Assembly: GCA_943330915.2 (NCBI GenBank)
Contig: CALQJO020000018.1
Location: forward strand, 1-51,115
Length of the DNA stretch: 51,115 nucleotides
Direction: 5' to 3'
Source of the DNA: Rhodoferax sp. OV413
GTDB taxonomy: Bacteria > Pseudomonadota > Gammaproteobacteria > Pseudomonadales > Pseudohongiellaceae
The position numbers were made by a program, and so were the translations under genes. Under the pieces are notes generated by a model. That model had not been told where the DNA came from. It searched no databases and saw only the letters and a program-made list of their open reading frames with translations. Position 1 is the stretch's first letter, and every line of letters begins with the position of its first letter. Below, piece after piece: positions 11,330-48,674 of this stretch.

Positions 11330-11353
11330 GCTGTAAAAAATGAGTCGTAAACT

Positions 11354-26685: not shown

Positions 26686-28248
26686 ATGACAATCAAATTC
26701 AAATCACTGTGCCTGCTTCTGATCCTGCATGTTCTGGCTCCAGTGCATGCTCAGGATAATGCGCCGGTAGTGACGACTGCGCAGGGTAAACTGATTGGTG
26801 AGTACTCCAGTCGCAATAACCGTGTCTCAGTCTACAAAGGTATCCCGTTTGCCGCGCCGCCTGTGGGGCAAGCGCGCTGGACTGCCCCACAGCCGGCTCC
26901 TGGCTGGACGGGTGAGCGATTGGCAACTGATTTTGGCCCTGACTGTATGCAGCAGCCCTATCCGGAAGGCTCATTTTTTTACCGCCCGGCACGTGTCAGT
27001 AGCGAAGACTGTCTGTATCTGAACGTGTGGACAGCGGCTGACGAAAATGCCAACAAGCCTGTGATGGTGTGGTTTCACGGTGGGGCACTCACCCGGGGGT
27101 CCGGGGCAATCGATACCTATGACGGCAGCGAACTGGCGCTGAAGGATGTTGTCCTGGTAACTGTCAATTACCGCTTGGGGGTGTTCGGCTACTTTGCCCA
27201 CCCGGAGCTGATCGCAGAGTCTGAGCATTTCTCGGCGGGCAATTACGGCATCCTTGATCAGATACAATCGCTGCGCTGGGTACAGGAGAACATTCGTGCT
27301 TTTGGAGGAGACCCCGCAAATGTCACCATTTTTGGTGAGTCGGCGGGCGCCTGGAGCGTGCATTTTCTGACAGCAAGTCCGCTTGCCAATGGGTTGTTTC
27401 ACAAAGCCATCGCACAAAGCGGCGCGCGTATGGATACGCGGGTGGCGCTGGATCAGCAAACGTCCGCCGGTGCCTCGGCCAGTTCGTCTGGTGCGCGTCT
27501 GGCAGAGTTGATGGGTGCCGCCGATCTGCCAGCAATGCGCGCTGTTCCTGCCAGAGAGCTGCTGGACGCGGCAGCTGAGCACAGTTTCAGATCAGATGGC
27601 ATTGTGGATGGCTGGGTCTTGCCAGAGCAGCCCTTTGTTCAATTCTCCGGAGGGCGTCAGAATAGTGTTCCCATCCTGGTTGGATTTAATGCCGAGGAGG
27701 GCACAACGCTGGGCGCGGGTTCAAATCTGCCCGGTACACCGGAGGCCTATGAACAGCAGGTCAATGCCCTCTATGGCGATTTGGCAGAGATGGTGCTTGA
27801 GGTTTACCCGTCGTCCGACATCCGCAAGTCCAGCCTCGACAGTTTTCGTGATTCTGTGTTTGGCTGGCATATGGTGACCTGGGCTAATCTGACACGGCAT
27901 GTCCAGCAGCCGGCCTATCTGTATTTCTTCACGCACCGGCCACCGGGTCCGATGGCTCAGGAGCTTGGTGCGTACCACGCATCGGAGATCGCCTACGCGT
28001 TTAACACGGTTCATACCTTGAGTAATCAGCCCACCGCGATTGATTATCGGCTGGGTGATGTGATGTCGGATTATTGGGTTAATTTTGCGCATCACGGTGT
28101 GCCGTCGGCGCCGGGTCAGCCTGAATGGAAGCCCTATAGCAACGCTGAGCGCAATTACCTGTTGTTTGGCGCTCAGATCAGTGCCGAACAGAACCTGTTG
28201 CCTGACAATTGGGCGTTGTTTGACCGCGTGATGGATCGTCGTCGTTAA
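26686..28248 (+). CDS. Secreted type-B carboxylesterase
   Basis: An alpha/beta-hydrolase of the cholinesterase/carboxylesterase family, with a signal peptide (1-22, ending VHAQ). The catalytic triad is intact: Ser219 in FGESAGAWS, Glu338 in GFNAEEGT, His431 in GAYHASEIAYAF. The oxyanion motif WFHGGAL (129-135) and the SEDCLYLNVW signature are also present. The length (520) is normal. Likely hydrolyses carboxylic esters in the periplasm or medium; substrate unknown. It is alone on its transcript, with 89 bases upstream and 90 bases downstream. Confidence 0.9.
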   Translation: MTIKFKSLCLLLILHVLAPVHAQDNAPVVTTAQGKLIGEYSSRNNRVSVYKGIPFAAPPVGQARWTAPQPAPGWTGERLATDFGPDCMQQPYPEGSFFYRPARVSSEDCLYLNVWTAADENANKPVMVWFHGGALTRGSGAIDTYDGSELALKDVVLVTVNYRLGVFGYFAHPELIAESEHFSAGNYGILDQIQSLRWVQENIRAFGGDPANVTIFGESAGAWSVHFLTASPLANGLFHKAIAQSGARMDTRVALDQQTSAGASASSSGARLAELMGAADLPAMRAVPARELLDAAAEHSFRSDGIVDGWVLPEQPFVQFSGGRQNSVPILVGFNAEEGTTLGAGSNLPGTPEAYEQQVNALYGDLAEMVLEVYPSSDIRKSSLDSFRDSVFGWHMVTWANLTRHVQQPAYLYFFTHRPPGPMAQELGAYHASEIAYAFNTVHTLSNQPTAIDYRLGDVMSDYWVNFAHHGVPSAPGQPEWKPYSNAERNYLLFGAQISAEQNLLPDNWALFDRVMDRRR

Positions 28249-31132: not shown

Positions 31133-33256
31133 TCAGTCGGGCAGACTAAACACATACACGGCGTTACCGGTCCGTGGCGGTCTGATCTCTGTAGAGACTG
31201 CATTGGGAACCTGCCGGGGGCTGGTGCCGCCATTGCCAGCGGTTACAGCAATATACTGCTTGCCATCGATGCTGAATGTCAGTGGATGGCCCTGAACTGC
31301 GGTTCCCAGGCGTGTCTGCCAGAGGATCTCTCCGGTTTCTGCATCGAAAGCGCGGAAACGACGATCAAGATCGCCGACAAACGCAAGATTGCCTGCGGTT
31401 GACAGCACACCGGTGATGAACGAGGCGCGCTGTTCATAACTCCACAACTCCGCCAGGGTAGTTACGTCATAGGCAGCCAGTTTGCCCAGGTTGCCATCGG
31501 TTTCCGGCATCTCGTAAAAGCGTCGGTTGGAGGCGAGGCCGCCTGAACCAGGTACCAGTTCGACTGCGCGCGCGCGGTTGTCAAGGCAGGTCTGGCTTAG
31601 TGGCGCAATCAGAGAGCCGGTCGGCTGGTGGTAACTCATGGCATGCCAGTTTTTGCCGCCAGCGCTACTTGGGCAGGCGGGAATCCACTCGTCCAGTTGC
31701 GCATTGATAATGTCGTCCCGATAGGTAACCGCCCCGGTTACCGGGTCAATGTGGGTGAACACATTCTGGTACATGGTTTCAGTAAAGCCCAGAAACTCGC
31801 CGGTTGCCCGATCGTTTTTCCACAGAATCCCATGTTTGCCAATTGATAAAACCAGCTGCCTGCCGTCCTGATCAACCAATACACGTTCAAACACTTCATC
31901 GAGGTCAAGCGCTTCGCCCGGCACATGCTGGAAGTGCCAGGCCAGCTTGCCAGTATCAATGTCCAGTGCAATGGTGGCGTTGGTGTACAGACCAGCATCA
32001 TGAATGGACATGTGCCTGCTGGGTGGAGCCCATGGCTTGGCTTGCGCGACGCCCCAGTAGGTCAGCCTCAGCTGCGGGTCGTAACTGCCGGTGATCCAGG
32101 TTTCACCCCCGGCGCGAAACAGATCATCGAGTCCGCCCCAGGTATCACCCCCCGCTTCTCCGTTTTTGGCGATGGTGTTGAATTGCCAGGCCAGCGCGCC
32201 GGTGTCGGCATCATAAGCGCTGACATAACACTCTTCCGGGATGTAAGTGGCGCACCCGGCCAGTCCCACAACAATCTTGTTGTCAGCAATCAGCGGTCCG
32301 CTGGAATTGGCAAAGCCTTTGCTGCTGTCGGCAATGATGGTTTCCCAGACCTGCTGTCCGGTGCGGGCGTCCAGTGCAATCAGCCGTGCATCGGTGGTTG
32401 CCTGAATGACTTTATCCTTGTACAGCGCGATGTTGCGCATATCCTCGCCAGTAGCGGGTCCTGCGGCATGTTCCCAGATCAGTTCGCCTGTGCGCGCATC
32501 CAGCGCCTGCACGACATTGCCGGGATTGATCAGGTACATGATGCCGTTGGCGACAACCGGTGAGGGCTCGGAGTCACCTTCGTGCATGTTCCAGACCCAT
32601 TCCAGTGTCAGGCCACTGACATTGTCGCGGTTAACCTGGTCAAGCTTGCTGTAACTCCATGCCTGGGGATTGCCCCGCCACATCAGCCAGTCGTCGGGTG
32701 AGGGATTGGTCAGATCGTCGTCGCCCAGCGGCTCATAGTTTTCAATACTGCCCGCCACGATCACCCCGGTTGGCGCGTCAGCTGAGGCGGTGCGGGTGCC
32801 TGTATTGGTGTTGCGTGGCATTTCCGCGAGAGTCACAGTCGCGCCGGCAACCAAAGGTGATGTTCCGGCACGAACGCCATTTGTACGCAGCATATGCGCG
32901 GTGATGTTCAGAAAGTCCCCAGGCAAGAGTTGTTGCGAGCCGCCTGGCGGCATGGAATTGGTGATCAAGCTAATCAATGAGCCAATATCCCGGCCAGCCC
33001 AGCGCGTGCCAAAGGCTGCCCCACTGAGTGCCGGCCCGCCGGTCCCACCGGCCATGGTTCGTCCATGACACGCGGAACAGTGCTGGTCGTACGCTGTGGC
33101 ACCGGCAAGCGCCTGATCCTCGGTGTACGTGTGTGTGTCCGGAATCTGTGCCATTAACATCGAGGAAGGTGCGATCAGCAGGCTGCACGCCAACAAAAAT
33201 TGCACAAAATGGTTCTTGGATATCAGCTTGTCAGGGTGACAAATAAACATTGGCAT
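31133..33256 (-). CDS. PQQ-type propeller dehydrogenase with N-terminal cytochrome c domain
   Basis: Periplasmic quinohemoprotein of 707 residues. A signal peptide (about 1-37, ending MLMAQ) leads into a cytochrome c domain with CSACH (60-64) and a likely axial Met102 in NSMPPGG. An eight-bladed PQQ-type propeller follows, with tryptophan-docking repeats such as [35 protein letters not shown] and [10 protein letters not shown]. The ATG at 33256 is the likely start (AAAGGTG upstream on its strand); an 80-codon extension further up is improbable because it would overlap the divergent kinase gene. The substrate is probably an alcohol, aldehyde or sugar. Confidence 0.85.
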
Positions 33257-33304
33257 GATGTGATACACCTTTATTATTGATGCGATTAACTCTAGCTGAT
33301 TCCG

Positions 33305-33334
33305 CCACTTGAGTACACCACTTGAGGATTCAAG
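33305..33334. repeat. CCACTTGAG direct repeats between the propeller and kinase genes
   Basis: CCACTTGAG occurs at 33305-33313 and again at 33318-33326. The second copy also begins the small inverted repeat CTTGA/TCAAG (33321-33334). It lies in the 106-base divergent promoter region. It could be an operator, but chance is not excluded. Confidence 0.35.
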
Positions 33335-33362
33335 GGGGTTGGAATTGCCGGCACGGAAATAC

Positions 33363-36300
33363 ATGTCTATCACCACAACACAAGGTTCAGGCTTCGGGCT
33401 CTTCAGGGCCCATTTCTGCTTCAGGCGGGCGCAGCGAATTCGCATGCTGGTGACCATCCTGTTTTGCTCATGGGTCAGCGTTTTCTTCGTAGGCAAGGGG
33501 CATGCGCTGGATCTGACCAGTTTTGTTGGGGGCCTGGTGCCCGGCCAGGAAATGTTCTGGATTCACGACGCCGACGGCGGGCTCAGCTTTGACGAGGCGC
33601 GACTGCAATTGCAGACCATCGGGCAAGCCGAGACGGGGTCCAGGCACCCTAATCTTGGTTACCGCCGAGGTGCATTGTGGGTAAAACTCGAGCTGACTAA
33701 TCGCCTTAGAGACGAATCTCAGTGGGTCGCTTTCACTAATTTCACCAAACTGGCCCGGATCGATTTCTACTATCAGGACGCCGATGGCGTTTGGCAAACG
33801 CGCGCTGCAGGCAATTCATTACCATTTCGTGACCGTGATCTGATGCACAGGAGCATTAATTTCAAGTTCGCGGTTTTCCCGGGGCAACTTCAGACACTCT
33901 ACTTCAGGGTCGAGAGCGCAGGCTCTCTGCAGTTCCCGCTGGCAGTCGGCAACGAGGAGCATTTTTTTGCCGAGGCTGAGTTCTCACTGTTAGTGGCAGG
34001 TCTTTACTACGGTTTGATGCTGATGATTGGCCTCTACAGTTTTTCCGTATGGTACAGCAGTCGAGAGACGGGGTTTTTGTACTTCGGGATATTGGTGGCG
34101 TGCGGCGGGTTTCATTCGTTTGCGGCGCAAGGTCTGGCGCATCAGTTCCTGTGGCCTGAATCGTCCGGGTGGGCCAGCAACGCTGCCAGTATTTTCAGTT
34201 TGATGGCCTGTGCCGCAGGTATGACCTTTGTTCGAACATTTTTGAGGACACACACTCTGGATGCGCGGCTGGACATTGCGGCCAGGTATTACAGCATTGC
34301 TGCGGGTCTTGCGATTGTTGTTGGGCTAGTCAGTGATGCATATATCACCAACCGTCTGGCCCTGGTGTTTACCTTTGTGTTGGCTGGTCTGGTAACGCTT
34401 AGCGGCTACCTTGCGCACCGCAAAAAGACCCGCGAGGCCAGCTATTTTATGTCAGCCTGGGGCATGCTCTTGCTCGGTGTTTTCCTTGAGGTGGTGCAGC
34501 TCCTGGGTATCAATATGCCTCCGTTGTTGGCCTACAACGCCATACAGCTCTCAGCCCTGGTGGCAATTTCCATGTTGGCACTGGGCCTGAGCGACCGCCT
34601 TAAGGGCATGATAGAAAATTATCGTGTGTCCCAAGAGTCCATCCTGCGTGCAAACCAGCTGAAGATAGATGCCTTGCAGCAGGCTGACCATGTGAAGGAA
34701 GAGTTTGTTGCCAATGTGTCTCATGAGTTGCGCACGCCATTGACGGGCATCATTGGTCTTGCGGAGATCATGCTGACCGACAAGTCAGGCGGCAATCTGA
34801 CTATCAACCAGCGTGAAACCCTGACGCTGATGAAGGTCAGCGCGCAGCGCCTGTCGAGCCTGGTCAATGATGTCATTGATTTTTCTGCCATGAAAAACGG
34901 GCAGTTATCTCTCAATAAACGAGATGTTGATCTGAAGCAGGTATGTTCATTGGTGGTGCGCATGATTCGCCCTCTGCTTGGCGACAAACCCATCAATCTG
35001 GTAGAGACCTATCCAAACTCGAAGGTTCTGGTCGAGGGTGATGCAGACCGCCTTCAGCAGGTACTGTTTAACTTGGTTGCCAATGCCGTTAAGTTCACGC
35101 CCCGCGGCACGGTGACCATCAGTATTGAACTGTTGGAGGACGACGTCAGGGTGTCGGTGCGCGATACCGGCATCGGCATTTCAGCAACGGAGCAGAAGAA
35201 TATCTTCAAGCGTTTTTACCAGGTTGATTCGGTTGAGACGCTGCAGGTCGGTGGCACAGGTCTTGGCTTGTTTATCACGCAACGACTGCTGGAGATGCAT
35301 AACGCCGAAATTGGTTTGCAAAGTACGCCCGGCGTTGGCTCGGTGTTCTACTTTGATTTGCCATTAATGCAGTCAATGCCGGAAGGCGCCCGCGAACGCA
35401 CCGAAACACCTGCAGTTGTCGCCGCCTCGGCGATTGAACCACGTTCACTCATCAGCCTTGATCAGGCTTTGTATAGCAACCCGCTAGCCGAAGAGCGGCG
35501 TAGAGGTGGTCAAGAGGATGATGAGAGCGCAGTGTCCGCCAGCAACCGACGTGAGTGGACCGGTCGTATTCTGGTGGTTGATGATGAGTACCTGAATCTG
35601 CGCATTGTAGAGTCACATCTGTCAGAGTCGTATCAACTGACAACCGCATCGAGTGGTGCGGAGGCGCTTGAAAAGCTTGGTCAGGAAAAGCCGGATCTGA
35701 TTATTCTGGATCTGATGATGCCGGTGATGAGCGGCTATCAGGTCTGCCAGATTGTCCGCCAACGCTACGATGCGGATGAACTGCCGATTGTGATACTGAC
35801 TGCAAAGAACCGGGTCGAAGACATGGTAAAAGGCCTGAGCCTTGGTGCCAACGATTACCTGACCAAACCCTTCAGCAAAGAAGAACTGCGCGTGCGGGTT
35901 GACAAACAGTTTGAGCTGCTGCACCTGCAAGGTGTCAGACGAGATAATCAGCGGCTCAACTGGCAGCTGCAGCGGTATGAGGAAAGTGAGAAACGACTGC
36001 GCGCAAGGGAACAGCACCTGGCCGCGTTATTGGATGTCACGGGTGATCCGCTGCTGGCGGTAGACGAAGTGGGGCAGCTGATTTTTATCAATCACGCTGC
36101 AGGGGATCTTCTGCAAATACAAGCCGGGGATTACGTCCATCAATCCATCAATGTGTTGTCGGATCAGATGTCGGCACTGTCTCCTGCTGTGGCGCAGGCC
36201 ATCCACTTTCCGTTTAATGAGGCTATGATTTCGAGCAAAGGCAAAGCTGACTATCACGACTTCGATTTGCCAGCGGGGAAAGGTCGCTTTTGTCTGTTGA

Positions 36301-36958: not shown

Positions 36959-39211
36959 ATGCAAAAAAAATCCCTCATGCCATTGTTGTTGATCACACTT
37001 GCGGGGCCATTGCTGGCGCAGTATGGCGCGCCCGATGGCCAGTGGCACACCTGGGGTGGTGACCACGGATTCACCCGCTATACAGCGCTTGATCAGATCA
37101 ACGCAAGCAACGTTCAGCAGTTGCAGGTGGTCTGGCGCTGGAAGGCATTGCCACTGGGCAATCGCCCCGACAGCAATTTAAAGGCCACACCGCTGATGGT
37201 GGATGGCGTTTTGTATGTTCCATCCGGTCAGCATCAGGTGGTGGCACTAGACCCTGCCACCGGACAACAGATCTGGCGTTTTGATCCGCATCCCACGTCA
37301 GTCGCCGAGCGCGGCCTGGGACTGGGCAGCCGTGCGCTGGGCTTGTGGCAGTCGGGCGATGAAACCCGTTTATTTCACAACACGCTGGATGGCCGGCTCA
37401 TCTCTATTGACGCACGCACCGGTCTTGCTGATCCGGAATTTGGTGACAATGGCACGGTGATGCTGCGCGAAGGTTTGTATCCGGATGGTTCTGATGCGGA
37501 ATCAGTCGGGTCTTCGTCACCTCCCGCAGTGGTTGGCGACATTGTGGTGGCGCAGGTGGTGGGCACCATCACGGCTCCCAACAAGGAAGCCACGCCGGGT
37601 CATATCCGTGGTTACGATGTGCGCACCGGCGAATTGGTCTGGCGCTTTAACACTGTTCCGCAACCCGGTGAATTCGGGCACCACACCTGGGAAGGCGATT
37701 CCTGGCGCTATACCGGCAACACCGGGGTCTGGTCGATGATGAGTGTGGATACCGAAACCGGTTACATCTATCTGCCGGTTGAAGCGGGTTCCAACGATTT
37801 TTATGGTGGACATCGCACCGGTGACAATCTGTTTTCTCAAAGCCTCGTGTGCCTGAATGGCCTTACCGGAGAGTTGGTCTGGCATTATCAGCTGACCCAT
37901 CACGACCTGTGGGACTATGATCCGCCCTCCGCGCCTATTCTGGGAGATATCACGGTCAATGGCGTGCGTATCAAGACCGTAACACAGTTGACCAAGCAGG
38001 GTATGTCGTTTGTACTTGACAGGGTGACCGGTGAACCAGTCTGGCCCATCGAAGAGCGTGCTGTGCCTCAGAGTGAAGTGCCGGGTGAGCAGACATCCGC
38101 CACTCAACCGTTTCCAAGCTTGCCACCGCCTTATCTGACACAGGGCTATCATGAGGCAGATCTGATTGATTTTACTCCTGAGATCAGAGCCGAGGCTCTG
38201 GCAATAGCCTCCCAATATGTCCGTGGGCCGCTCTACACGCCCCCGACACCGCTGCGCGACGGTGGTACACAGGGCACTTGGGTGAATCCCGGCTATCAGG
38301 GCGGTGCTAACTGGAATGGTGCTGCGTTTGACCCGCAAACCGGCATGATGTTTGTGCCTCTTCGCAATGCACCGATGTCAGCCGCCCTGCAAGAGCCTGA
38401 CCCTGCACGCACCAATTGGAATTACCTGCGTGCGCCTTCGGTTTTTATTCAGGGCCCACGAGGACTGCCGATCGTGCGTCCACCCTGGAGTCTGGTGACA
38501 GCAACCGATATGAACAGGGCGCAGCATACCTGGTCACGCAGTATCGGGCCGGCATCGGACTACATCCGTGATCACCCCGATCTGCAGGGGCTGAATCTTG
38601 ATTTTGACAACATGGGCCATCCGATGATCCGGCCCTCACCGTTGCTGACCTCTGAATTACTCTTTATGGCCGAGGCAGGCAATCTGAGCGGTGATCCGGG
38701 CGGCCCTATGTTCAGAGCCTATGACAAGTCTACGGGTGACGTGCTCGCAGAAATTGAGTTACCCATCAAGGCCAGCGGCGCACCCATGAGCTATTTTCAC
38801 AAAGGGCATCAGTACATCGTGATTGCTGTTGCGACGGCTGAGCAGCCCGCGGAACTGGTGGCACTGGCATTGCCCGGGGCCGCTGTTTCTGCCGCTGAGT
38901 TTCCAACTTCATTGGTCAGTGCAGATCAATCGGATGAGCGGCCATCCACGTTGTCAGCCGTGACGTTGGCCCAGGCAGGCCAGTTGTATGCTGCGCACTG
39001 CGCGGCTTGTCACGGGGCACAAGGGCAAGGCATTCCAGGAGGGTCGGCCCCATCGCTTGGCAATGCTCGTGACCTGCAACAAGTGCGCGCGATGATCAGT
39101 AACGGCGCTGTAGAGATGCCAGCGTTTGCCTTGCGTCTTTCTGCGCAGGACATTGAATTGTTGAGCGAGTTTGTTGTTGGTGGTTTGCCTTCAAACGCTG
39201 CAGTGGAGTAA
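36959..39211 (+). CDS. PQQ-dependent dehydrogenase with C-terminal cytochrome c (quinoprotein glucose dehydrogenase-like)
   Basis: Periplasmic quinohemoprotein of 750 residues: signal peptide (1-20, ending LLAQ); a propeller starting WHTWGGDHGFTRYTALDQINASNV, as in membrane glucose dehydrogenase-like enzymes, with HHTWEGDSW, GELVWHYQLTHHDLWDYDPPSAP and GANWNGAAFDPQTG; then a C-terminal cytochrome c with CAACH (681-685) and a probable axial Met720 in VEMPAF. The HHDLWDYD motif is a hallmark of the GDH group. It follows the hybrid kinase by 41 bases on the same strand and may be co-transcribed. Its heme domain is C-terminal, whereas the propeller protein on the other side has an N-terminal one. 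Confidence 0.9.
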   Translation: MQKKSLMPLLLITLAGPLLAQYGAPDGQWHTWGGDHGFTRYTALDQINASNVQQLQVVWRWKALPLGNRPDSNLKATPLMVDGVLYVPSGQHQVVALDPATGQQIWRFDPHPTSVAERGLGLGSRALGLWQSGDETRLFHNTLDGRLISIDARTGLADPEFGDNGTVMLREGLYPDGSDAESVGSSSPPAVVGDIVVAQVVGTITAPNKEATPGHIRGYDVRTGELVWRFNTVPQPGEFGHHTWEGDSWRYTGNTGVWSMMSVDTETGYIYLPVEAGSNDFYGGHRTGDNLFSQSLVCLNGLTGELVWHYQLTHHDLWDYDPPSAPILGDITVNGVRIKTVTQLTKQGMSFVLDRVTGEPVWPIEERAVPQSEVPGEQTSATQPFPSLPPPYLTQGYHEADLIDFTPEIRAEALAIASQYVRGPLYTPPTPLRDGGTQGTWVNPGYQGGANWNGAAFDPQTGMMFVPLRNAPMSAALQEPDPARTNWNYLRAPSVFIQGPRGLPIVRPPWSLVTATDMNRAQHTWSRSIGPASDYIRDHPDLQGLNLDFDNMGHPMIRPSPLLTSELLFMAEAGNLSGDPGGPMFRAYDKSTGDVLAEIELPIKASGAPMSYFHKGHQYIVIAVATAEQPAELVALALPGAAVSAAEFPTSLVSADQSDERPSTLSAVTLAQAGQLYAAHCAACHGAQGQGIPGGSAPSLGNARDLQQVRAMISNGAVEMPAFALRLSAQDIELLSEFVVGGLPSNAAVE

Positions 39212-40200: not shown

Positions 40201-40761
40201 GTGATAAACGAAATGTTAGTCCAATTCGCTGAGTGGCTATACGCTACTGGGGGAAGTCGGGCGATTGAGGAGTCTTTTTATTTATACAACTGGATAGAAA
40301 CAACGCATGTTTTGACAATCATGGTTTGTCTCGGGATGCTGGCTTTTATCGATCTTCGAATGCTTGGTTATGCCTTGCCAAATGTGTCTGCGTCAACTAT
40401 CGCGGACAGGTTGAATGTACCCATGATGATCGGGTTTGCCCTTATGTTCATCACGGGTTTGTTATTGTTTTATGCCAAGCCAACTTACACGAACCAAAGT
40501 ATTTGGTTCCGAATCAAAATGGTGCTGTTGGTGGTCGCATTCTTCAATGCCATCAGGTTTCACCGTCATATGAAAGCATCGGCTTCAACTTGGTGTAATG
40601 AGCCGCGCGCACCCTTTAACTTGCGTGTAAGTGCGGCGTTGTCGCTTGGTCTTTGGGCCGGAGTTGTAACAACAGGGCGCCTTATTGCATACGATTGGTA
40701 TCATTGCTACCGAGATCTTCCGGGCTGGTTGAGCGCTGCTGCGGGATGCGTTGCTGAGTAA
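40201..40761 (+). CDS. DUF6644-like integral membrane protein, first copy
   Basis: A 186-residue protein with four to five membrane helices (about 29-55, 73-90, 103-118, 143-163) and short charged loops. Notable residues are the Glu-Thr-Thr-His at 33-36 (WIETTHVLTIMV) and His121/His123 in FHRHMK, which could bind a metal or heme. The GTG start follows GGGAGG at good spacing. It resembles the next gene in plan (ETTH versus GQSLHLMAL; TTGRLIAYDW versus ATGRWIGFSG at the ends), so both probably belong to one family. No enzymatic role is known. Confidence 0.65.
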   Translation: MINEMLVQFAEWLYATGGSRAIEESFYLYNWIETTHVLTIMVCLGMLAFIDLRMLGYALPNVSASTIADRLNVPMMIGFALMFITGLLLFYAKPTYTNQSIWFRIKMVLLVVAFFNAIRFHRHMKASASTWCNEPRAPFNLRVSAALSLGLWAGVVTTGRLIAYDWYHCYRDLPGWLSAAAGCVAE

Positions 40762-40827
40762 CGTATGACAAAAATTCTGGGCGCCATGCAGGCGTCATGC
40801 TGGTTTTGAGATGAGTCAGGAGTTCCT

Positions 40828-41310
40828 ATGGAGCTATTACCTTTTTTTGAGTGGGCAGAAACAACATTTTTAGGATACATCGGCAAGACCTATGGGGGAG
40901 TCTATGCCACTTTCGGGCAGTCATTGCATTTGATGGCGCTGGCTGTTCTTGGCGGGTCTGTTCTGGTTGCTGATTTGCGTTTGTTAAATGTCATCATGAA
41001 GGACGTACCTTCTGAAATAGTGACAGAGCAGGCGCATAAATGGTTTCGCATAGCGCTAGTTATGATTATCAGCACAGGGATCTTTATGGCGGCGGCAGTT
41101 GCACAGCGGATGTATCACAACGACTTTTTCTGGGCAAAAATGTCAGCTCTTTTGGTTGGTATAATCTTTGTGTTCGCGATAAAACGCCCACTGTTGAAAG
41201 GCTCGCACGCTGACCTTAATCCAATAGTGATAAAAATGGTCGCTTCCGCCTCAATTCTCGTCTGGTTCAGCGTTGCTGCAACTGGGCGATGGATTGGTTT
41301 TTCAGGCTGA
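40828..41310 (+). CDS. DUF6644-like integral membrane protein, second copy
   Basis: The 160-residue protein has four membrane helices (about 26-50, 70-92, 105-118, 133-155). It contains His34 in the first helix (SLHLMALAVLGG, matching the His of the neighbouring paralogue), DLRLLNVIM, and the ending ATGRWIGFSG. AGGAG sits 7 bases before the ATG. It forms a cluster with the paralogue upstream (66-base gap) and the 45-residue membrane peptide downstream (19-base gap), so they probably form one complex. Confidence 0.65.
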   Translation: MELLPFFEWAETTFLGYIGKTYGGVYATFGQSLHLMALAVLGGSVLVADLRLLNVIMKDVPSEIVTEQAHKWFRIALVMIISTGIFMAAAVAQRMYHNDFFWAKMSALLVGIIFVFAIKRPLLKGSHADLNPIVIKMVASASILVWFSVAATGRWIGFSG

Positions 41311-41574: not shown

Positions 41575-42135
41575 TTAGAATATGCCAAGTTCTATAAGAA
41601 AATAATCATCGCGAAACAGTTCAGTGATCAGTCTGTCCAAGCCCAGCTCTATTGCTGTGCTCACATCCTTGCCTTCTACTGAGGTTCTGCTGACAACCTC
41701 ACTTTGCCATGCATTTCGCCCTTGGTTGATCAGAGTCAGCTCGCATCGTATCAAGACCTCCAGGCCGGTGGCCGTATCCTGGACACTCATCTCAATCAAT
41801 TTGCCTTCAAGAGATAATCGAGCATCACCCTCGGCTAATGACGCGCCAGAGCTTGTAAATGCTCCTACAACAGCTGAATGAACCAGCGCGTGAGGTGCTA
41901 ACACGGTAAGGATTATTGGTTCGCCTCCAATACGCTGAATGCCTTGGGATACTGGTTCGTTGCGATGATCAGTGAATACGTTTATCGCCAGCGGGCCTCC
42001 TCTGATTGCACCAAGATCGACACCAGTCTCGCCTTGATACTGATATTCAAGGTTGATTTGTTCGTCAGCAAATGAATTAAAAGCGGAAAGCGCCAATAGA
42101 GTCGCAAAAACTCCTGACGCAATTTGTTTGTACAT
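41575..42135 (-). CDS. Periplasmic protein of unknown function
   Basis: The 186-residue protein has a clear signal peptide (1-23, ending SFADEQ). The mature part, with INVFTDHRNEPVSQGIQRIGG, a central VHSAVVGAFTSSGASLAEGDARLSLEGKL and a C-terminal helix, resembles YajG-like or flagellar/envelope lipoproteins in style (V.DLG...L.INVF.DxR), but it has no lipobox and I cannot assign a family. GGAGGT precedes the start on its strand. A terminator of the upstream NHL gene (same strand) lies between the two, so it has its own promoter or depends on read-through. Confidence 0.65.
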   Translation of the reverse strand: MYKQIASGVFATLLALSAFNSFADEQINLEYQYQGETGVDLGAIRGGPLAINVFTDHRNEPVSQGIQRIGGEPIILTVLAPHALVHSAVVGAFTSSGASLAEGDARLSLEGKLIEMSVQDTATGLEVLIRCELTLINQGRNAWQSEVVSRTSVEGKDVSTAIELGLDRLITELFRDDYFLIELGIF

Positions 42136-42219: not shown

Positions 42220-43410
42220 TTAAAGCCTGTCAGCTGGCCAAGGCACGCCTTGATGTCCCTGTGGCATATCTTTCATGCCCTGGTACACAAATTTTTGCAC
42301 ACGCTTGCCTTCATAAGTTTCCGTTGTATAGATGTTGTTCTGTGAGTCTGTTGCTATGCTGTGTGGAGCATAAAACTGTCCTGGCTGTCGTCCGCCACCG
42401 CCAAAACTAACCAGTACTTCTAGGGACTGACGATCAATTACGTAAACCTTGAAGTTTTGACCATCCGCGAGGTAGATGTACTTTTGCTCCTCATCGTTTG
42501 AGAAAGAAATATCCCAAGTCGAGCCCTGGGCTAATGTCTCAGGTGCAATGACCACTTCCCTGACGTATGTACCATCAGGGCGGAATACCTGAATCCTGTC
42601 GGAACCTCGGTCGCAAACATATACAAAGCCATCTTTAGACGGGATTGCGCAGTGGACCGGGCCACGGAACTGCTGTGGAAGCGGTGCTCCCGGAGTGTAA
42701 TCTACCCGCTCATCCACTGGCGTGTTGCCGTAGGCGCCCCAGTAGCGCTTGAAGGCGCCTGTATTCAGATCAAGCACGGCTACACGTTTGTGGCGATAAC
42801 CATCGGCAAGGTAGACCTCGTTATTTGCTGCATCAATAGCAAGTTCCGCAACTTGGCCGAAGAACGTCGTGCTATTACTGTCAGGGGTGCTTCCCGGTAT
42901 CCCGTGCTGTGCTACAAACTGTCCGTCGCCAGTAAAGACCAAGACGTGGGAGTCACCAGTGCCATTGCCGCCTATCCAAACGTTGCCGTTTGGGGCAATA
43001 GCGATTCCGTGATTGGATTCCGGCCAAGTAAAGCCTTCGCCTGGGCCGCCCCAAGCGTTAACCAGGTTGCCAGCTGGGTCGAATTCGAGGATTGGAGGCG
43101 CAGGCGTGCAGCACTCGCTAACCCCCAGTTTCAGGCCTATTTCAGTTGCCCCGCCAAACATTGATTCTTGGTCTCGATGCACGATGAAGACGTGATCACG
43201 CGCGTCGACTTCTACACCAATAGCCCGACCGATTATCCACTGATTAGGCAAAGGCTTTGGCCAAAAAGGGTCCACTTCGAAGCTTGGAGCGGAGACCATA
43301 GTGCCAGATTGAGCTTCAACCGGGTCTTTCAGCAAGGATTGCCCGGCAGTGAGTGCAGCCACTGCAAGTGCTAGACTTGCTCCCACTGCTATTTTCGTTT
43401 TTATTGTCAT
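42220..43410 (-). CDS. Secreted NHL six-bladed propeller, peptidyl-hydroxyglycine amidating lyase (PAL)-like
   Basis: A 396-residue exported protein (signal region 1-34) built of NHL repeats. Aligned from memory against rat PAL (Arg533, His585, Tyr654, His690, Arg706, Met784, His786), the functional residues match in order: Arg79 in FIVHRD (VIFHRG in PAL), His134 in SNHGIAIAPNGN (PHGLSID), Tyr205 in LADGYRHKR (VSDGYCNSR), His253 in PVHCAIPS, Arg268 in CDRGSDRIQ (ADRENGRIQ) and His350 in APHSIATD (MPHDIVAS). The three zinc histidines, the catalytic Tyr and both Arg are kept; Met784 is replaced by Ala348. A vicinal Cys100-Cys101 is unusual. Eukaryotic PAL cleaves alpha-hydroxyglycine extensions to give amides. 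A PHM-like gene lies 3.5 kb downstream on the opposite strand. Confidence 0.75.
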   Translation of the reverse strand: MTIKTKIAVGASLALAVAALTAGQSLLKDPVEAQSGTMVSAPSFEVDPFWPKPLPNQWIIGRAIGVEVDARDHVFIVHRDQESMFGGATEIGLKLGVSECCTPAPPILEFDPAGNLVNAWGGPGEGFTWPESNHGIAIAPNGNVWIGGNGTGDSHVLVFTGDGQFVAQHGIPGSTPDSNSTTFFGQVAELAIDAANNEVYLADGYRHKRVAVLDLNTGAFKRYWGAYGNTPVDERVDYTPGAPLPQQFRGPVHCAIPSKDGFVYVCDRGSDRIQVFRPDGTYVREVVIAPETLAQGSTWDISFSNDEEQKYIYLADGQNFKVYVIDRQSLEVLVSFGGGGRQPGQFYAPHSIATDSQNNIYTTETYEGKRVQKFVYQGMKDMPQGHQGVPWPADRL

Positions 43411-43464
43411 GTTATCCCCTCCGGGGTTTCAACATTTCGAGCATGGATTTCGAGTGCAGCCGAC

Positions 43465-43496
43465 GTATACTCAGCTCCTCCCCCTCAGTATACTCA
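43465..43496. repeat. GTATACTCA direct repeats in the divergent promoter region
   Basis: GTATACTCA occurs at 43465-43473 and at 43488-43496, 23 bases apart (about two helical turns), between the divergent PAL-like and HupE-like genes. Each core GTATAC is itself a palindrome. The pattern suits a dimeric regulator that controls both genes. Confidence 0.45.
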
Positions 43497-43566
43497 CTGC
43501 GATTAAGGTTTGACCAGAGCCATCCTCAGCATAGTGATCGTGGCTGAATAACTTGAGGCTAAAAAA

Positions 43567-44943
43567 TTGATTTGTAATAACTTAAAACAGCTAAATGCTA
43601 ATTGGTCACGTGTCCGGCTCGTCCTGGTTGCCCTGATTTGCCTTGCCTCTCCTGCGGTTTTGGTTGCAGATGAAATACCTTCCAGAGTCGCGGTGCAAGC
43701 TTTTGTTAAGGCCGATGATGGCCGTTTGAATCTGCTGATGCGTGTGCCAATGGACGCGCTCGTAGAGGCTCAGTTCCCACTGAGAGGCGAGATTGGTTAC
43801 GTAATTTTTTCTGAAGCCACTGGTGCCATGGAGAGCGCTGCAAATAGTGAAATCCTTCCGGGCATACAACTTTTTGAGGGAGATCGCTTTTTACAGTCGC
43901 CGAGCCTTGAGGCTGTCAGAATAGCTTTCCCCTCCGATCGATCGTTTGTGGATTATGATTCGGCCATGGCGAATATCTATAGCCCGCCAATTCCAGACGC
44001 CCAGGATCTTTACTACAGACAAGGTTTCCTGGACATTCACGCGACGTACAGCATCGATTCATCTGAGTCTAGGTTTTCAGTTGATGCCAGGTTAGGTGGG
44101 TTGGGTCTCGAAACGACAACAATACTCAGATATGTATTGCCAGACGGCTCTGAGCGCACTTTCAGTTTTGTTGGGAATCCAGGGCTGGTCTACATGGATC
44201 CCCGCTGGTACCAGGCTGTGCTCAACTTCGTGATTCTAGGGTTCGATCACATTCTTGAGGGGGCGGATCACCTGTTGTTTCTGTTTTGTCTGCTGATTCC
44301 TTTGCGTCGCATTTCAGCGTTAATTCCGGTCATTACTTCGTTTACCATCGCTCACTCGTTGACGCTTATCGCTTCCGCCTTGGGTTGGGTTCCTTCAAGC
44401 ATATGGTTTCCCTCGTTGATCGAAACACTTATTGCGTTGTCTATTGTCTACATGGCCTGCGAGAACATAATCGGTGTCAGGCAGCAGCACCGCTGGATAA
44501 TGACTTTTGCTTTTGGGCTGGTCCATGGTTTTGGTTTTTCCTTCCTGCTGACTGAAAGCATGCAGTTTGCAGGTTCCCACTTGGTGATGTCATTACTGGC
44601 CTTTAACCTCGGGGTTGAGCTTGGACAAATTCTGGTGGTGCTGATCGCTGTGCCGATAGTTTACCTGCTTTTCAGATTCGCTCTGCCAGAGAAGGCAGGT
44701 GTTATCCTGCTATCCGCGATAGTTGGTCACTGGGCGTGGCACTGGATGGAGGAGCGCTGGGTTAACCTGTCCGCTTATGAAATTTCGCTGCCTGCGTTTG
44801 GTTCTGAGTTTCTGGTAGGGTTGTTGCAATGGTCTGCCTTGCTAATTCTGGCTTCTGTCATGCTTTGGATGATGAATTTGCTTTTCTCTAGATACTCGGC
44901 AAGCACGACTGAACGCATAAGCGGTTCTGAAGACAGCAGATAG
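43567..44943 (+). CDS. HupE/UreJ-family permease with N-terminal periplasmic domain
   Basis: The 458-residue protein has a signal-like helix (about 17-35), a periplasmic beta-rich domain (36-205) and seven membrane helices (about 218-445). HupE/UreJ hallmarks are present: GFDHILEGADHLLFL, FTIAHSLTL, GLVHGFGFSF and FNLGVELGQ. The His residues in the first, second and third motifs are the usual metal-coordinating set. HupE/UreJ relatives carry nickel or cobalt; this long form is found in many marine bacteria and the metal is unproved. The TTG at 43567 has GAGG 8 bases upstream. A metal permease next to a copper/zinc enzyme pair is suggestive. Confidence 0.8.
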   Translation: MICNNLKQLNANWSRVRLVLVALICLASPAVLVADEIPSRVAVQAFVKADDGRLNLLMRVPMDALVEAQFPLRGEIGYVIFSEATGAMESAANSEILPGIQLFEGDRFLQSPSLEAVRIAFPSDRSFVDYDSAMANIYSPPIPDAQDLYYRQGFLDIHATYSIDSSESRFSVDARLGGLGLETTTILRYVLPDGSERTFSFVGNPGLVYMDPRWYQAVLNFVILGFDHILEGADHLLFLFCLLIPLRRISALIPVITSFTIAHSLTLIASALGWVPSSIWFPSLIETLIALSIVYMACENIIGVRQQHRWIMTFAFGLVHGFGFSFLLTESMQFAGSHLVMSLLAFNLGVELGQILVVLIAVPIVYLLFRFALPEKAGVILLSAIVGHWAWHWMEERWVNLSAYEISLPAFGSEFLVGLLQWSALLILASVMLWMMNLLFSRYSASTTERISGSEDSR

Positions 44944-45040
44944 AGAGGTTTTTGGGTGCCAGCGTTCCAAAAGCCGCGTTGTTTTGTCACTCGTTGAATT
45001 GTTATGATGCCTAGCTGAAAACGTTGCCGTAGGGCTGTTT

Positions 45041-45058
45041 GATAATGATAATGATAAA
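45041..45058 (+). promoter_or_regulatory. Fur-box-like triple hexamer
   Basis: GATAATGATAATGATAAA is three consecutive GATAAT-type hexamers. The Fur consensus can be written as GATAAT hexamers, the third usually inverted. The site lies 16 bases before the cstA start codon, where a bound repressor would block initiation. Three direct hexamers also fit a simple GATAAT repeat, so this is tentative. Confidence 0.45.
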
Positions 45059-45073
45059 GCGGATAAATACTGT

Positions 45074-46762
45074 ATGACCGGGATAATGATTGTCTTGTTT
45101 GGTATCGCCGGCCTTTGTTTTGGCTGGTTCGTATACTCTAAGTTTATCGCCGAAAAAATCTTCAAACTGGATCCTGATTTCAGAACTCCCGCGCATGAGT
45201 TCAATGATGGAACCGACTTCGTGCCAACCAACAAGTATGTTCTCTGGGGGCATCACTTCACTTCTGTAGCCGGCGCGGCTCCGATCGTCGGCCCTGCGAT
45301 AGCGGTATATTGGGGTTGGGCTCCAGCTCTCTTATGGGTGGTCTTCGGCACGATATTTTTTGCGGGTATCCATGATATGGGTGCCTTGTGGGCGAGCAAC
45401 CGTAACAAAGGAAAGTCAATTGGTGCTCTGTCTGAGAGCGTTATCGGGAAAAGAACCCGATCTTTGTTCCTCATAGTCATCTTCTTGTTGTTGTTAATGG
45501 TCAATGCGGTTTTTGGCGTTATCATCGCTAATGGTTTCGTTGCTACGCCGGGTTCGGTGTTTCCTGCCTGGATGGCAATAGTAGTGGCTCTGATAATAGG
45601 TCAGTTACTGCGGAGAAATTTTAGTCTCATGCTGCTGACCGTGGTCGGCGTTATAGTTTTGTATATATCCATCTGGATGGGAACTTTCATAGAGTGGGAA
45701 CTTCCGTCAAGTTTTATGGGGCTTACACCTGAAGCTAATTGGATAATCATTCTGTTTATTTACGCGGCGATAGCATCAATGCTGCCGGTGTGGATGCTAC
45801 TGCAGCCAAGGGATTTTATTAACGGGATGCAGTTGATAGTGGGTCTGGCACTGCTATACGGCGCAGTCATCTTGTTCATGCCGGACATCACTGCTCCTGC
45901 GTTTAATACACAAACTGCACCAGGTACGCCGAGTATATTCCCACTACTTTTCATCACAGTTGCGTGCGGTGCAATCTCGGGATTCCACGGCATCGTGGCC
46001 TCAGGAACCAGTTCCAAGCAGTTGAATAAAGAGCCAGATGCCCGGTTTGTGGGCTACCTGGGGGCAATAGGTGAGGGCTCCCTTGCGTTGATAACCATTG
46101 TTATCGTTTGCTCCATCGCCTATGCGGTAAGTCCTGAGCAATGGCACGTACTATATAACCAATTTGGTGCCGGCGGCGCTCAGGCCTTCGTTGCTGGCGG
46201 AGCCGTGCTAGTCAACTCGGCATGGGGGCTGTCTGAAGACTTTGCCCAGGTTTTGCTGGCTACTATGCTGGCCTTGTTCGCGGGTACTACGATGGATTCG
46301 GGTGTTCGCTTGCAGCGTTACATTATTCAGGAGTGGGGCGACATCTATGGCATTAAGCTATTCAATTCTGGGGTAGTTGCTACGCTGGTTGCGGTTGCTG
46401 CCTGTTTGCTGCTGGCGTTTGGCGCTGGCGGCTCCTCTGGCGCAGGTGGGATGATAATCTGGCCATTGTTCGGAGCGACGAATCAGATTCTTGCCAGCCT
46501 TACACTGTTGGTAATAACTGTAATGCTGATCAAGATGGGCAGGCCATCGTACTACACTATGATTCCTATGATTTTCATTCTCATCACTTCATTTTTGGGA
46601 GGGATGATTCAATTACTCGCTTTCTACAATGCTGGGAATTACCTGCTGGTGGCGCTGGACTTTATCGTGCTTGTAGTAAGCGTTCTAGTCATGCTGGAAG
46701 CTGCGTCGGTGGTTTCTAAAATTAAGAAAGAGCAGGCCGCAGCCAAACTGGAGCATAGGTAA
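45074..46762 (+). CDS. cstA: CstA-family carrier (peptide/pyruvate transporter)
   Basis: Members import pyruvate or oligopeptides during carbon starvation. The 562-residue protein has about 15 membrane helices and the family motifs: NKYVLWGHHFTSVAGAAPIVGPAIAV near the N-terminus, FAGIHDMGALWASNRNKGKSIG, SGFHGIVASGTSSKQ, FAGTTMDSGVRLQRYI and WPLFGATNQILASLTLL. It is shorter than E. coli CstA (701), like many marine homologues. The start is the ATG at 45074. It follows the HupE-like gene by 130 bases. Confidence 0.9.
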   Translation: MTGIMIVLFGIAGLCFGWFVYSKFIAEKIFKLDPDFRTPAHEFNDGTDFVPTNKYVLWGHHFTSVAGAAPIVGPAIAVYWGWAPALLWVVFGTIFFAGIHDMGALWASNRNKGKSIGALSESVIGKRTRSLFLIVIFLLLLMVNAVFGVIIANGFVATPGSVFPAWMAIVVALIIGQLLRRNFSLMLLTVVGVIVLYISIWMGTFIEWELPSSFMGLTPEANWIIILFIYAAIASMLPVWMLLQPRDFINGMQLIVGLALLYGAVILFMPDITAPAFNTQTAPGTPSIFPLLFITVACGAISGFHGIVASGTSSKQLNKEPDARFVGYLGAIGEGSLALITIVIVCSIAYAVSPEQWHVLYNQFGAGGAQAFVAGGAVLVNSAWGLSEDFAQVLLATMLALFAGTTMDSGVRLQRYIIQEWGDIYGIKLFNSGVVATLVAVAACLLLAFGAGGSSGAGGMIIWPLFGATNQILASLTLLVITVMLIKMGRPSYYTMIPMIFILITSFLGGMIQLLAFYNAGNYLLVALDFIVLVVSVLVMLEAASVVSKIKKEQAAAKLEHR

Positions 46763-46874
46763 TCTGATTTCAACGGGGGAGGCTGGAATTACTTCAGTCT
46801 CACCCCGACGGGCCTGAGTTACAAATAATTGCAAAGGTAAAGCATGCCCGTGTATCTCCCAATTTTTGATTGTC

Positions 46875-46880
46875 TATAAT
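46875..46880 (+). promoter_or_regulatory. Candidate -10 element upstream of the PHM-like gene
   Basis: A perfect TATAAT (46875-46880) lies about 50 bases before the start of the next gene. No good -35 element stands at the usual distance, so an activator or extended contacts may be needed. Upstream, an imperfect stem near 46775-46805 (GGGGGAGGCTG / CAGTCTCACCCC) may end the cstA transcript. Confidence 0.4.
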
Positions 46881-46931
46881 CTGGGGAATTCAAGTTTCTA
46901 GGTGTCCGGGTTTGTTGGCTTTGTGCCCTAA

Positions 46932-48674
46932 ATGAAAAAACTGTTGGCGATACTTATTTGGGTATGTGGATTATCCACAGGTGAACTGTTCGCCAGTTCA
47001 GTGCCAGATTTTGCCTTGATTGACCAATATGGCAGATTTTATCAGCTAAGCCGGTTTGTAGATCAGCGCGTTGTTGTTGTGTTGGCATTTCAAAGAGACT
47101 CCGAATCAGGGCAGTCGGGTTTGGCCGAATTTGTTTCCCTATCAAGAAGATACCAAGGCGCTCCTGTCCAGTTCATGGTGTTGGTTGCTGATTCCGGTGA
47201 GACTAGGGAAAGCCTGAAAGAACTCTCCACTACCCTTGGCACTGAGATTCCTTTTTTACTTGATGAATCTCAGTTGATTGCGGATGCGCTGGAAGTCAGG
47301 TCTGTCGGCGAAGTGCTTGTTATCGAACCTTTGGAGTTGGCGGTTCTGTATCGAGGTGATGTGGGCCTCTTCAGTAATAGTGCGGCGCATCAGGCGCTGG
47401 CTGCGAATTTACCCGGCGTAACGTCTTACCTTCATTATGTTGTTCACTCTATCCTTAGACATGAAAACTTCAACGAGAATCCTGTTGCCTCAGAAGGTCC
47501 GCCATTGGATCTTGATAAGCTGATTCCTCGTAGGACTGTTGAAGTCTCTTACGAAACACAAGTAGCACCTATTCTGATTCAGCGTTGCGTTGGTTGTCAC
47601 CAGCCTGGCGGAATGGCGCCGTGGGCGATGGACAGTCATTTGATGGTTCAAGGCTGGAGTAAGATGATCCGGGAAACCCTGCTTACACGAAGAATGCCTC
47701 CGGGGCAGATTGATCCGGCCTTTGCTTCCAATTACGTCGATGTTCATCACATTACTGATGCGGAGATGTCCCTGTTAATTGCGTGGATTGATAGTGGTGC
47801 GTCGCGCGACGAGAACACGGTCGATCCTCTAAGTGAGGTTATTCCTGATGGTTCGCCGTGGGCTCTTGGCGAGCCTGATCTGATAGTTGATTTTCCCGAA
47901 CAAACTATACCGGCGACAGGTGTTCTCGAATATGTGTTTGTTCCATTGGAGATAGGGTTAACCGAAGATCGCTGGGTATCTGCTTATGAATTTGATGTGG
48001 GTGATAAGTCTGCTTTGCATCATGTAATTCTTTATACGCAAGATTCTCGTCAGCGTCGCCAGAATGCCAGCGGCGGCGGGAGTCGCACCAACTTTGGTGG
48101 TTATGCGCCTGGAAGAGAGTATGTTGTTCTTGATGAGGACACAGGCATTCTTTTGAAGCGTGATATGCGTTTCATGATCCAGTTTCATTACACTGCGGTT
48201 GGTCGTGAGCTTTTGGATAAGTCCAGATTGGGGCTTTATTTCAGGGATACTCCCCCCGAGCGTGAACTTGTCAGGACAGCTCTGATGAACGGGGACTTTG
48301 TAATTCCTCCGGGCGTTCGTGAGTTTCCGGTCAGTGCCAGTACGTTGGTCGCAAAGGATAGTTATTTGTATAGTTTCGCGCCTCATATGCATTTCAGGGG
48401 GAAACATATTCGCTTCTCTGTTCGATATCCGGATGGTAGTCACGAAAATCTGTTGTCGATACCGAATTTTCAGCACAATTGGCAAATGGTTTACCGTCTC
48501 AGAGATCCTGTTTTCCTGCCGGCGGGGACGGAGATTGTTGCAGAAGGCGCATTCGATAATTCACCTTATAACCCAATGAACCCGGACGCTGGGCAGACGG
48601 TTTCGTGGGGGGATCAAGTGTGGGATGAAATGTTTATCACGTGGATGCGAATAGCAGAAGCTCCTCAGCCATAG
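46932..48674 (+). CDS. Secreted copper monooxygenase: thioredoxin-like, heme motif, PHM-like domain
   Basis: A 580-residue exported protein (signal peptide 1-21). Residues 23-160 have a peroxiredoxin/thioredoxin-like fold (PDFALIDQYGRFYQLSRF) but contain no cysteine. A short c-type heme motif CVGCH (219-223, in RCVGCHQPGGMAPW) follows. The C-terminal half (about 310-575) matches copper type II ascorbate-dependent monooxygenases (PHM, DBH): copper ligands His363-His364 (LHHVILY), His419 (QFHY), His485 and His487 (APHMHFRGKH) and Met567 (DEMFITWM). In PHM the same set is HHM, QVHY, HTHH and a Met. The only two cysteines in the mature protein are those of the heme motif, so PHM's disulfides are absent. 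Similar redoxin/heme/monooxygenase fusions occur in other environmental bacteria. Confidence 0.82.
   Translation: MKKLLAILIWVCGLSTGELFASSVPDFALIDQYGRFYQLSRFVDQRVVVVLAFQRDSESGQSGLAEFVSLSRRYQGAPVQFMVLVADSGETRESLKELSTTLGTEIPFLLDESQLIADALEVRSVGEVLVIEPLELAVLYRGDVGLFSNSAAHQALAANLPGVTSYLHYVVHSILRHENFNENPVASEGPPLDLDKLIPRRTVEVSYETQVAPILIQRCVGCHQPGGMAPWAMDSHLMVQGWSKMIRETLLTRRMPPGQIDPAFASNYVDVHHITDAEMSLLIAWIDSGASRDENTVDPLSEVIPDGSPWALGEPDLIVDFPEQTIPATGVLEYVFVPLEIGLTEDRWVSAYEFDVGDKSALHHVILYTQDSRQRRQNASGGGSRTNFGGYAPGREYVVLDEDTGILLKRDMRFMIQFHYTAVGRELLDKSRLGLYFRDTPPERELVRTALMNGDFVIPPGVREFPVSASTLVAKDSYLYSFAPHMHFRGKHIRFSVRYPDGSHENLLSIPNFQHNWQMVYRLRDPVFLPAGTEIVAEGAFDNSPYNPMNPDAGQTVSWGDQVWDEMFITWMRIAEAPQP

Follow-up and report, generated by a model that had tools for sequence, protein, structure and literature searches.

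The stretch of DNA analysed here, called the window, comprises 51,115 nucleotides of Rhodoferax sp. OV413 (contig CALQJO020000018.1 of assembly GCA_943330915.2; genome G000, 2.89 Mb in 127 contigs). Between positions 42220 and 48674 it carries four genes, encoding an NHL propeller on the reverse strand, a HupE_UreJ_2 membrane protein, a CstA carrier and a protein of 580 amino acids (aa). The open reading frame (ORF) listing and Pfam bore out this gene content and the coordinates, as first given in the initial annotation (Table 1). The first and last of the four genes encode relatives of PAL and PHM, the two enzyme types of animal PAM. Starts described as signal-like were judged from the N-termini by eye and not by a signal-peptide program.

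Table 1. Features of the PHM/PAL-type locus and its surroundings in the window
Feature	Position	Strand	Basis or remarks
PAL-type NHL propeller, 396 aa, signal-like or anchor-like N-terminus	42220..43410	-	Pfam NHL, phmmer to rat PAL, family A1, residue counts
Arg79, proposed equivalent of rat PAL Arg533	43174..43176	-	phmmer end point 59 to rat 513; 99/99
His134, equivalent of rat PAL Zn ligand His585	43009..43011	-	rat LPHGL; two-step alignment; 99/99
Tyr205, equivalent of rat PAL Tyr654	42796..42798	-	rat SDGY654, then A1/A5 profile alignment; 99/99
His253, proposed equivalent of rat PAL His690, less sure	42652..42654	-	MAFFT column and spacing to R268; hhalign one residue off
Arg268, proposed equivalent of rat PAL Arg706	42607..42609	-	alignment end points and MAFFT column
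His350, proposed equivalent of rat PAL His786	42361..42363	-	rat FDMPHDI 782-788 against window FYAPHSI 346-352; 98/99 and one gap
Redoxin-like, haem c and PHM-type copper monooxygenase core, 580 aa, signal-like N-terminus	46932..48674	+	
CVGCH haem c motif (C219, C222, H223)	47586..47600	+	kept in 93/93
His363-His364, CuH-type ligands (rat His107/His108)	48018..48023	+	
His419, CuH-type ligand (rat His172)	48186..48188	+	
Ala483 at rat Arg240 position	48378..48380	+	R in 50/93
His485-x-His487, CuM-type ligands (rat His242/His244)	48384..48392	+	
Met567, CuM-type ligand (rat Met314)	48630..48632	+	
Trp571 at rat Tyr318 position	48642..48644	+	Y in 50/93
HupE/UreJ_2-type membrane protein, divergent from PAL	43567..44943	+	Pfam PF13795, HupE_UreJ_2, 2.4e-42
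CstA-type carrier (pyruvate/peptide family)	45074..46762	+	Pfam PF02554, 1.7e-139
186-aa protein, signal-like start, neighbour of PAL in many loci	41575..42135	-	
Two DUF6644 membrane proteins	40201..41310	+	in locus of fetched g1 regions and of g5 regions G029, G025, G043

The 580-aa protein starts with its signal-like segment, followed by a redoxin-like domain (AhpC-TSA in Pfam, 6.5e-6), the haem c motif and the PHM-type core. It was compared with 92 locus proteins, those under 300 bits or 500 aa being excluded. None of these 93 sequences has CxxC in the redoxin-like domain. M255 is invariant in all 93 and is likely to be the second haem ligand. All six copper-ligand positions (H363, H364, H419, H485, H487 and M567) are kept in 93/93, with one unread X at H363.

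With PF03712 the window core reached 15.1 bits, the cut-off being 23, and PF01082 was absent from its matches. PF03712 matched 21 of 23 family members at E values up to 1, and related copies from the window's own genome reached 29.3 and 29.4 bits. A direct phmmer search of the window protein against solved structures returned thioredoxin-type proteins and no PHM, and neither PHM nor DBH was among the 40 sequences matched by the family profile. Since the window protein remains below the Pfam cut-off and finds no PHM in the PDB, homology was tested by means of a bridge sequence, L173:8697-9938 from genome G235. This protein passes both PF03712 (52.9 against 23) and PF01082 (31.7 against 30), and among solved structures it finds rat PHM at 2.8e-7 (residues 150-408). 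A profile built from 15 short PHM proteins, L173 among them, aligns in turn with the window family at an E value of 6.5e-70 (profile comparison). In the bridge and profile alignments HH, H, HxH and M coincide with the rat copper ligands, the numbering of which was taken from chain 5wm0; the ligand names agree with those in the available text of PMC6123673. Judged by these alignments, the product of 46932-48674 carries a PHM-type dicopper core with the six ligands of the PHM/DBH superfamily, which is what the ligand pattern had suggested at the outset.

At least 16 PHM-like matches were found in the window genome, some of them fragments or redoxin-only. Neither this abundance nor the haem c motif and the redoxin-like domain figured in the initial annotation. 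Elsewhere, three PHM-like paralogues (L182:15385-17118, L179:17828-19561 and L189:1441-3174) have altered copper-ligand positions, read as HHHRNM or HSRHHM in one MAFFT alignment, and are possibly dead, re-purposed or misaligned copies. A redoxin-haem-PHM relative outside the family (L170:8141-10456, genome G395) has weak EF-hand matches at its C-terminus. A motif pattern pointed to PHM-like proteins without haem in six loci, but the twelve inspected had the look of antisense or unrelated reading frames and were set aside.

The propeller aligns with rat PAL (3fvz) in one colinear stretch (window residues 59-290; phmmer E value 2.2e-7). Multi-repeat TRIM-NHL proteins score above PAL in the PDB through their repeats, both for the window propeller and for its paralogues, and PAL was not among the PDB matches of a 224-aa piece of the propeller. 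Residue equivalence was obtained in two steps. First, part of a distant paralogue was aligned with rat PAL (1.1e-15), rat His585 and Tyr654 being visible in the alignment, and a profile alignment of the paralogue family (A5) with the window family (A1), with an E value of 1.4e-24, places H134 and Y205. For a second piece of the distant paralogue the comparison with rat PAL consists of the alignment end points only. R79, H134, Y205, H253, R268 and H350 are kept in all 99 family members, the window included, except for two X at 253 and one gap at 350, and also in 7/7 more distant homologues. His585, His786 and His690 of rat PAL serve as zinc ligands, and Tyr654, Arg533 and Arg706 were taken as further residues characteristic of PAL. 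On this basis the window propeller is of PAL type at His585 and Tyr654 by the two-step alignment and at His786 by motif match. The residues matched with those named in the initial annotation are kept throughout the family, those other than His585 and Tyr654 being placed by motif or spacing, and only tentatively so for His690, Arg533 and Arg706.

Distant PAL-like paralogues keep R79, H134, H253 and R268, whereas Y205 is replaced by H and H350 by E (13/13). In view of these two substitutions the name PAL would be premature, and they are referred to here as PAL-like. The window propeller is 100% identical over its length to one in record CANHAR010000011, and the next complete matches are 77-94% identical; they include two records titled MAG Pseudohongiella and one from Pseudohongiella sp. 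O18. By these nearest named records the host belongs with the Pseudohongiellaceae/OM182 clade of marine gammaproteobacteria. Genes 63-79% identical to the window PAL also appear in contigs titled Chloroflexota, Klebsiella pneumoniae and Gemmatimonadetes (L097, L157 and L158), which are probably mislabelled or mis-binned. The ScyF and ScyD/E family models were matched below their cut-offs and were not used.

Each of the six genomes searched in depth holds at least 13-36 PHM-like and at least 4-29 PAL-like matches, and with so many per genome co-location had to be judged against a null model. The genome-search counts are lower bounds (for example, the best 3, 5 or 9 candidates per genome were scored). 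In four one-contig genomes a PHM-like gene lies within 5 kb of 6/9 PAL-type genes, against 0.37 expected, and none of 5000 circular shifts equalled the observed count; with the distance widened to 10 kb, 2 of 5000 did. These nine genes, from which a distant paralogue (G009, 302 bits) was excluded, include neighbouring duplicates and represent six loci, four of them with PHM. A wider test used four of the six in-depth genomes, G007 and G010 being excluded because they are in several contigs. It took 58 of 65 PAL-like rows, after removal of six that scored below 67 bits and one of 90.7 bits containing two stops, together with 78 PHM genes derived from 89 rows by 5 merges of split rows and the exclusion of 6 redoxin or redoxin-haem pieces. 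PHM was found within 10 kb of 18/56 PAL-like genes, against 4.1 expected, a number reached in none of 2000 shifts. Among 144 relatives, the window genome included, a search at 1e-10 found both genes in 67, PHM only in 3, PAL-like only in 18 and neither in 56. PHM and PAL are genetically coupled within this bacterial family, and PAL also occurs alone.

The locus itself is conserved. In genus g1 both orthologues are present in 13 of 15 genomes, on one contig in 12 and on two in G011; the other two, G002 and G006 (72% complete), have neither and contain other PHM paralogues only. Gene maps were drawn for 20 fetched regions from 19 genomes and for 78 named loci. In most of them HupE is divergent from one to three PAL-type genes, and one to three PHM genes and CstA lie on the HupE side up to BirA. 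Beyond PAL most maps show the 186-aa protein, for which no Pfam family was found at 0.001, often followed by a further PHM gene. The order varies by genus, CstA being placed between PHM and HupE in g1 and beyond PHM in many others, and regions L081, L084 and L145 are without the window-type PHM.

A PHM-like gene was found in 49/78 loci, many of which are on short contigs, and in 48 of the 76 loci with a PAL-type ORF the distance between HupE and PAL is at most 3 kb. A PAL-type ORF scoring over 300 bits is missing from two of the 78 loci, and in 27 of the remaining 76 one flank is shorter than 6 kb; in the other 49, PAL is flanked by 6 kb or more on either side. Among these, PHM is within 8 kb in 39/40 loci with HupE. 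The initial annotation had staked its proposal in part on the two genes being found together in relatives, and they are, more often than by chance (6/9 against 0.37 expected, and 39/40 beside HupE), so that the case of genes that never co-occur does not apply. The frequent presence of a HupE-type membrane protein beside PAL could also point to a module for handling copper or redox equivalents whose enzyme cores have lost their catalytic function, and the altered copper ligands of some paralogues elsewhere would agree with it. The ligand positions are nevertheless invariant in the locus copies, and we consider such a module very improbable.

Related pairs are also found outside the main locus. 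In L176 a PAL gene (65% identical) is accompanied by PHM, a TonB receptor, an AraC regulator and an alpha/beta hydrolase, and in L174 a PAL-like gene is found with two PHM genes, an HpcH/HpaI aldolase and a beta-lactamase-type hydrolase. The L174 aldolase family protein (11165-12115) looks secreted and adjoins the PAL-like gene between the two PHM-like genes; members of the HpcH/HpaI aldolase family often act on pyruvate or glyoxylate. The further neighbours in L104, the sole such locus annotated that far, belong to the Amidohydro_3, Penicil_amidase and G_glu_transpept families, and ORFs similar in length (families not assigned) stand at the same positions in many other loci. Upstream of the locus in the window there are two PQQ-type dehydrogenases with c-type cytochrome domains (31133-33496 and 36959-39211). 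An amidohydrolase (23640-25004) and a carboxylesterase (26686-28248) are also present in the window, at a distance too great for claiming a link.

The PHM proteins differ in the residues that stand where rat PHM has Arg240 and Tyr318. Among the 93 full-length proteins 50 have R/Y, 31 G/F, 11 A/W (the window protein among them) and one H/Q; R and Y always occur together. At the rat Asn316 position the window protein has I569, and N is found there in 0/93. In a tree of 124 core sequences, read as unrooted, a supported branch sets apart each of the R/Y, G/F, A/W and Q/W types, the Q/W proteins being a shorter kind that starts with the haem domain. R/Y proteins are present in 33 of the 47 loci with a full-length PHM. 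The loci with PAL-type genes host the R/Y, G/F and A/W clades, and Q/W copies adjoin a PAL-type gene (L176) and PAL-like genes (L174, L175 and L183), so that at least four PHM clades are neighbours of PAL-type or PAL-like genes. Of the window genome's copies that are of readable length, the only ones to combine R/Y with a complete set of copper ligands are in a split array on contig C21. In this split form, seen in L184:7111-10493 (G000, C21) and L181:6366-11969 (G009), PHM-only R/Y-type genes stand in tandem with a separate redoxin-haem c gene between them.

We take rat Arg240, Asn316 and Tyr318 to be the anchor of the glycine carboxylate, for which no confirming literature was found in the library searched. 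The R/Y-type paralogues probably accept glycine-like carboxylate substrates, and the window A/W type probably takes something else. The initial annotation had proposed a periplasmic hydroxylate-then-cleave route with glycine-extended peptides among its possible substrates. The route remains the best reading, whereas with Ala and Trp at these two positions such peptides are not favoured for the window copy. Paralogues in other lineages, beside the same kind of PAL, keep R and Y, and these equivalents of Arg240 and Tyr318 near PAL would suit a true alpha-amidation of the organism's own glycine-extended peptides, such as signals or bacteriocins. That explanation is nonetheless very unlikely, given A/W in the window copy, a window ORF listing (ORFs of at least 90 aa only) in which no precursor-peptide gene was noticed, and hydrolases, a TonB receptor and carriers at other loci that look catabolic. 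Hormone-like amidation is possible for the R/Y paralogues and least so for the window copy.

Several observations weigh against PHM and PAL acting as a fixed pair. Three of the nine PAL-type genes of the chance test, including both G071 copies, have no PHM within 10 kb; 18 of the 144 relatives have PAL-like genes without PHM, several of the matches being weak and distant; and where HupE is missing, only 1/9 of the fully flanked PAL loci has a PHM gene at 8 kb or less. Compared with 39/40, this last count indicates two kinds of PAL locus, PHM belonging to the HupE kind. Moreover, HupE (48/76) is as frequent a neighbour of PAL as PHM (49/76), which makes the link one of the whole locus and not of PHM alone. 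PHM occurs without PAL in relatives G002, G006 and G127 and in phylum genomes G395 and G235, and PHM matches exceed PAL-like matches in 5/6 in-depth genomes. Across 349 genomes of the phylum, apart from the window's, a search at 1e-30 found PAL-type genes in 11, PHM-type genes in 2 and both in none; PF03712 was limited to the window's genome and G235. A looser PHM search in the 11 PAL-only phylum genomes and in G112 gave a single match, to a redoxin region only. Finally, A483, I569 and W571 stand in the window copy where PHM proper has its Arg240/Asn316/Tyr318 anchor.

The PAL proteins from six of the 11 PHM-less phylum genomes and from G112 keep all PAL residues. Such propellers would be older or wider than the link with PHM and may have other partners or substrates. 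Loci L163-L168 and L172 hold full-residue PAL-type propellers in proteobacteria where no PHM core was found. It is possible, if doubtful, that the genes are neighbours in one periplasmic catabolic island without acting in sequence, the PHM-like proteins being members of a broad family of haem-linked copper hydroxylases that act on various compounds and the PAL-type protein cleaving another hydroxylated or ureido substrate (ureidoglycolate-like). Both the full-residue PAL in genomes where no PHM core was found and the large number of PHM matches in the six genomes, with their many pocket types, fit this explanation. However, different PHM clades are repeatedly co-located with PAL-type and PAL-like genes, which argues against it.

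A periplasmic two-step oxidative N-dealkylation module is the reading that we favour, giving it an even chance of being correct. The comparisons establish the homologies, the ligands, the co-location and the conservation of the locus, and from these the reaction, electron path, substrate, import and purpose are inferred. The PHM-type dicopper protein would hydroxylate a carbon next to an amide or amine nitrogen, and electrons would reach the copper core through the fused c-type haem, which may replace the ascorbate used in animals. The split version, in which PHM-only genes accompany a separate redoxin-haem gene, fits haem as the electron donor. The PAL-type zinc propeller would then split the carbinol or carbinolamide into a shortened amide and a small oxo-acid, for example glyoxylate. 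CstA is a possible importer of a glyoxylate- or pyruvate-like acid; its match to the NCBIfam pyruvate symporter model is below the model cut-off. Metal supply by HupE, as put forward in the initial annotation, is likewise a possibility suggested by the family name. Hydrolases of the Amidohydro_3, penicillin-amidase and gamma-glutamyltranspeptidase families, as in the related locus L104, could open the remaining amide. The purpose of such a module is most likely the scavenging of dissolved organic nitrogen or peptides, and N-dealkylation for scavenging is more likely than amidation of the hormone style. In a broader and more tentative proposal, OM182-clade bacteria may run a haem c-driven counterpart of PAM, a set of periplasmic PHM/PAL-type oxidative N-dealkylations, one clade to each pocket type, harvesting nitrogen and two-carbon acids from peptides, N-acylglycines and related marine amides. 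If true, the PHM/PAL couple would no longer be tied to hormone signalling, and the idea that PAM arose from catabolism could be put to the test. Such a conserved couple in bacteria, its haem built in, would provide a workable system, for instance in Pseudohongiella sp. O18 or LSUCC0112, in which the electron supply of PHM without ascorbate and the role of bacterial PAL-type propellers could be studied. It could also serve to ask if oxidative N-dealkylation takes place extracytoplasmically in marine bacteria.

Peptide signalling in eukaryotes is the setting in which the PHM/PAL couple is known. No description of a bacterial pair was found among the papers listed by the literature searches, judged by title and abstract start, which is weak evidence as the library searched lacks most subscription papers. 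Animal PAM, represented by the rat enzyme, has the same two enzyme types, and its copper ligands and PAL His585 and Tyr654 align with the bacterial pair. In the bacterium, however, the two genes are separate with two others in between, the PHM is fused to a haem c and a redoxin-like domain that may serve in place of ascorbate, and the window copy is without the Arg240/Tyr318 pair of rat PHM. The available text of PMC6123673 describes PHM and PAL as separate genes and proteins in Drosophila, and that of PMC8812541 assigns PHM to eukaryotes, with PNGase F as its relative by fold in bacteria. The bacterial haem c-PHM L173 resembles the window protein in its haem c motif; unlike it, L173 passes both Pfam PHM cut-offs and has no redoxin-domain match, and G235 has no A1-type PAL match at 1e-30. 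DBH (4zel) belongs to the same copper monooxygenase superfamily and is matched by L173 at 5.7e-5, below the rat PHM score; to our knowledge it has no PAL partner. A comparable division of labour is found in methylguanidine demethylation by MgdH and MgdL, in which a bacterial oxygenase is followed by a dedicated lyase for the hydroxylated N-alkyl intermediate (PMC12508155, available text). MgdH differs in being a 2-oxoglutarate/iron oxygenase, and according to its authors PAL and MgdL have no sequence homology. In the same text these authors name peptide amidation by PHM and PAL as the sole similar activity known to them (PMC12508155).

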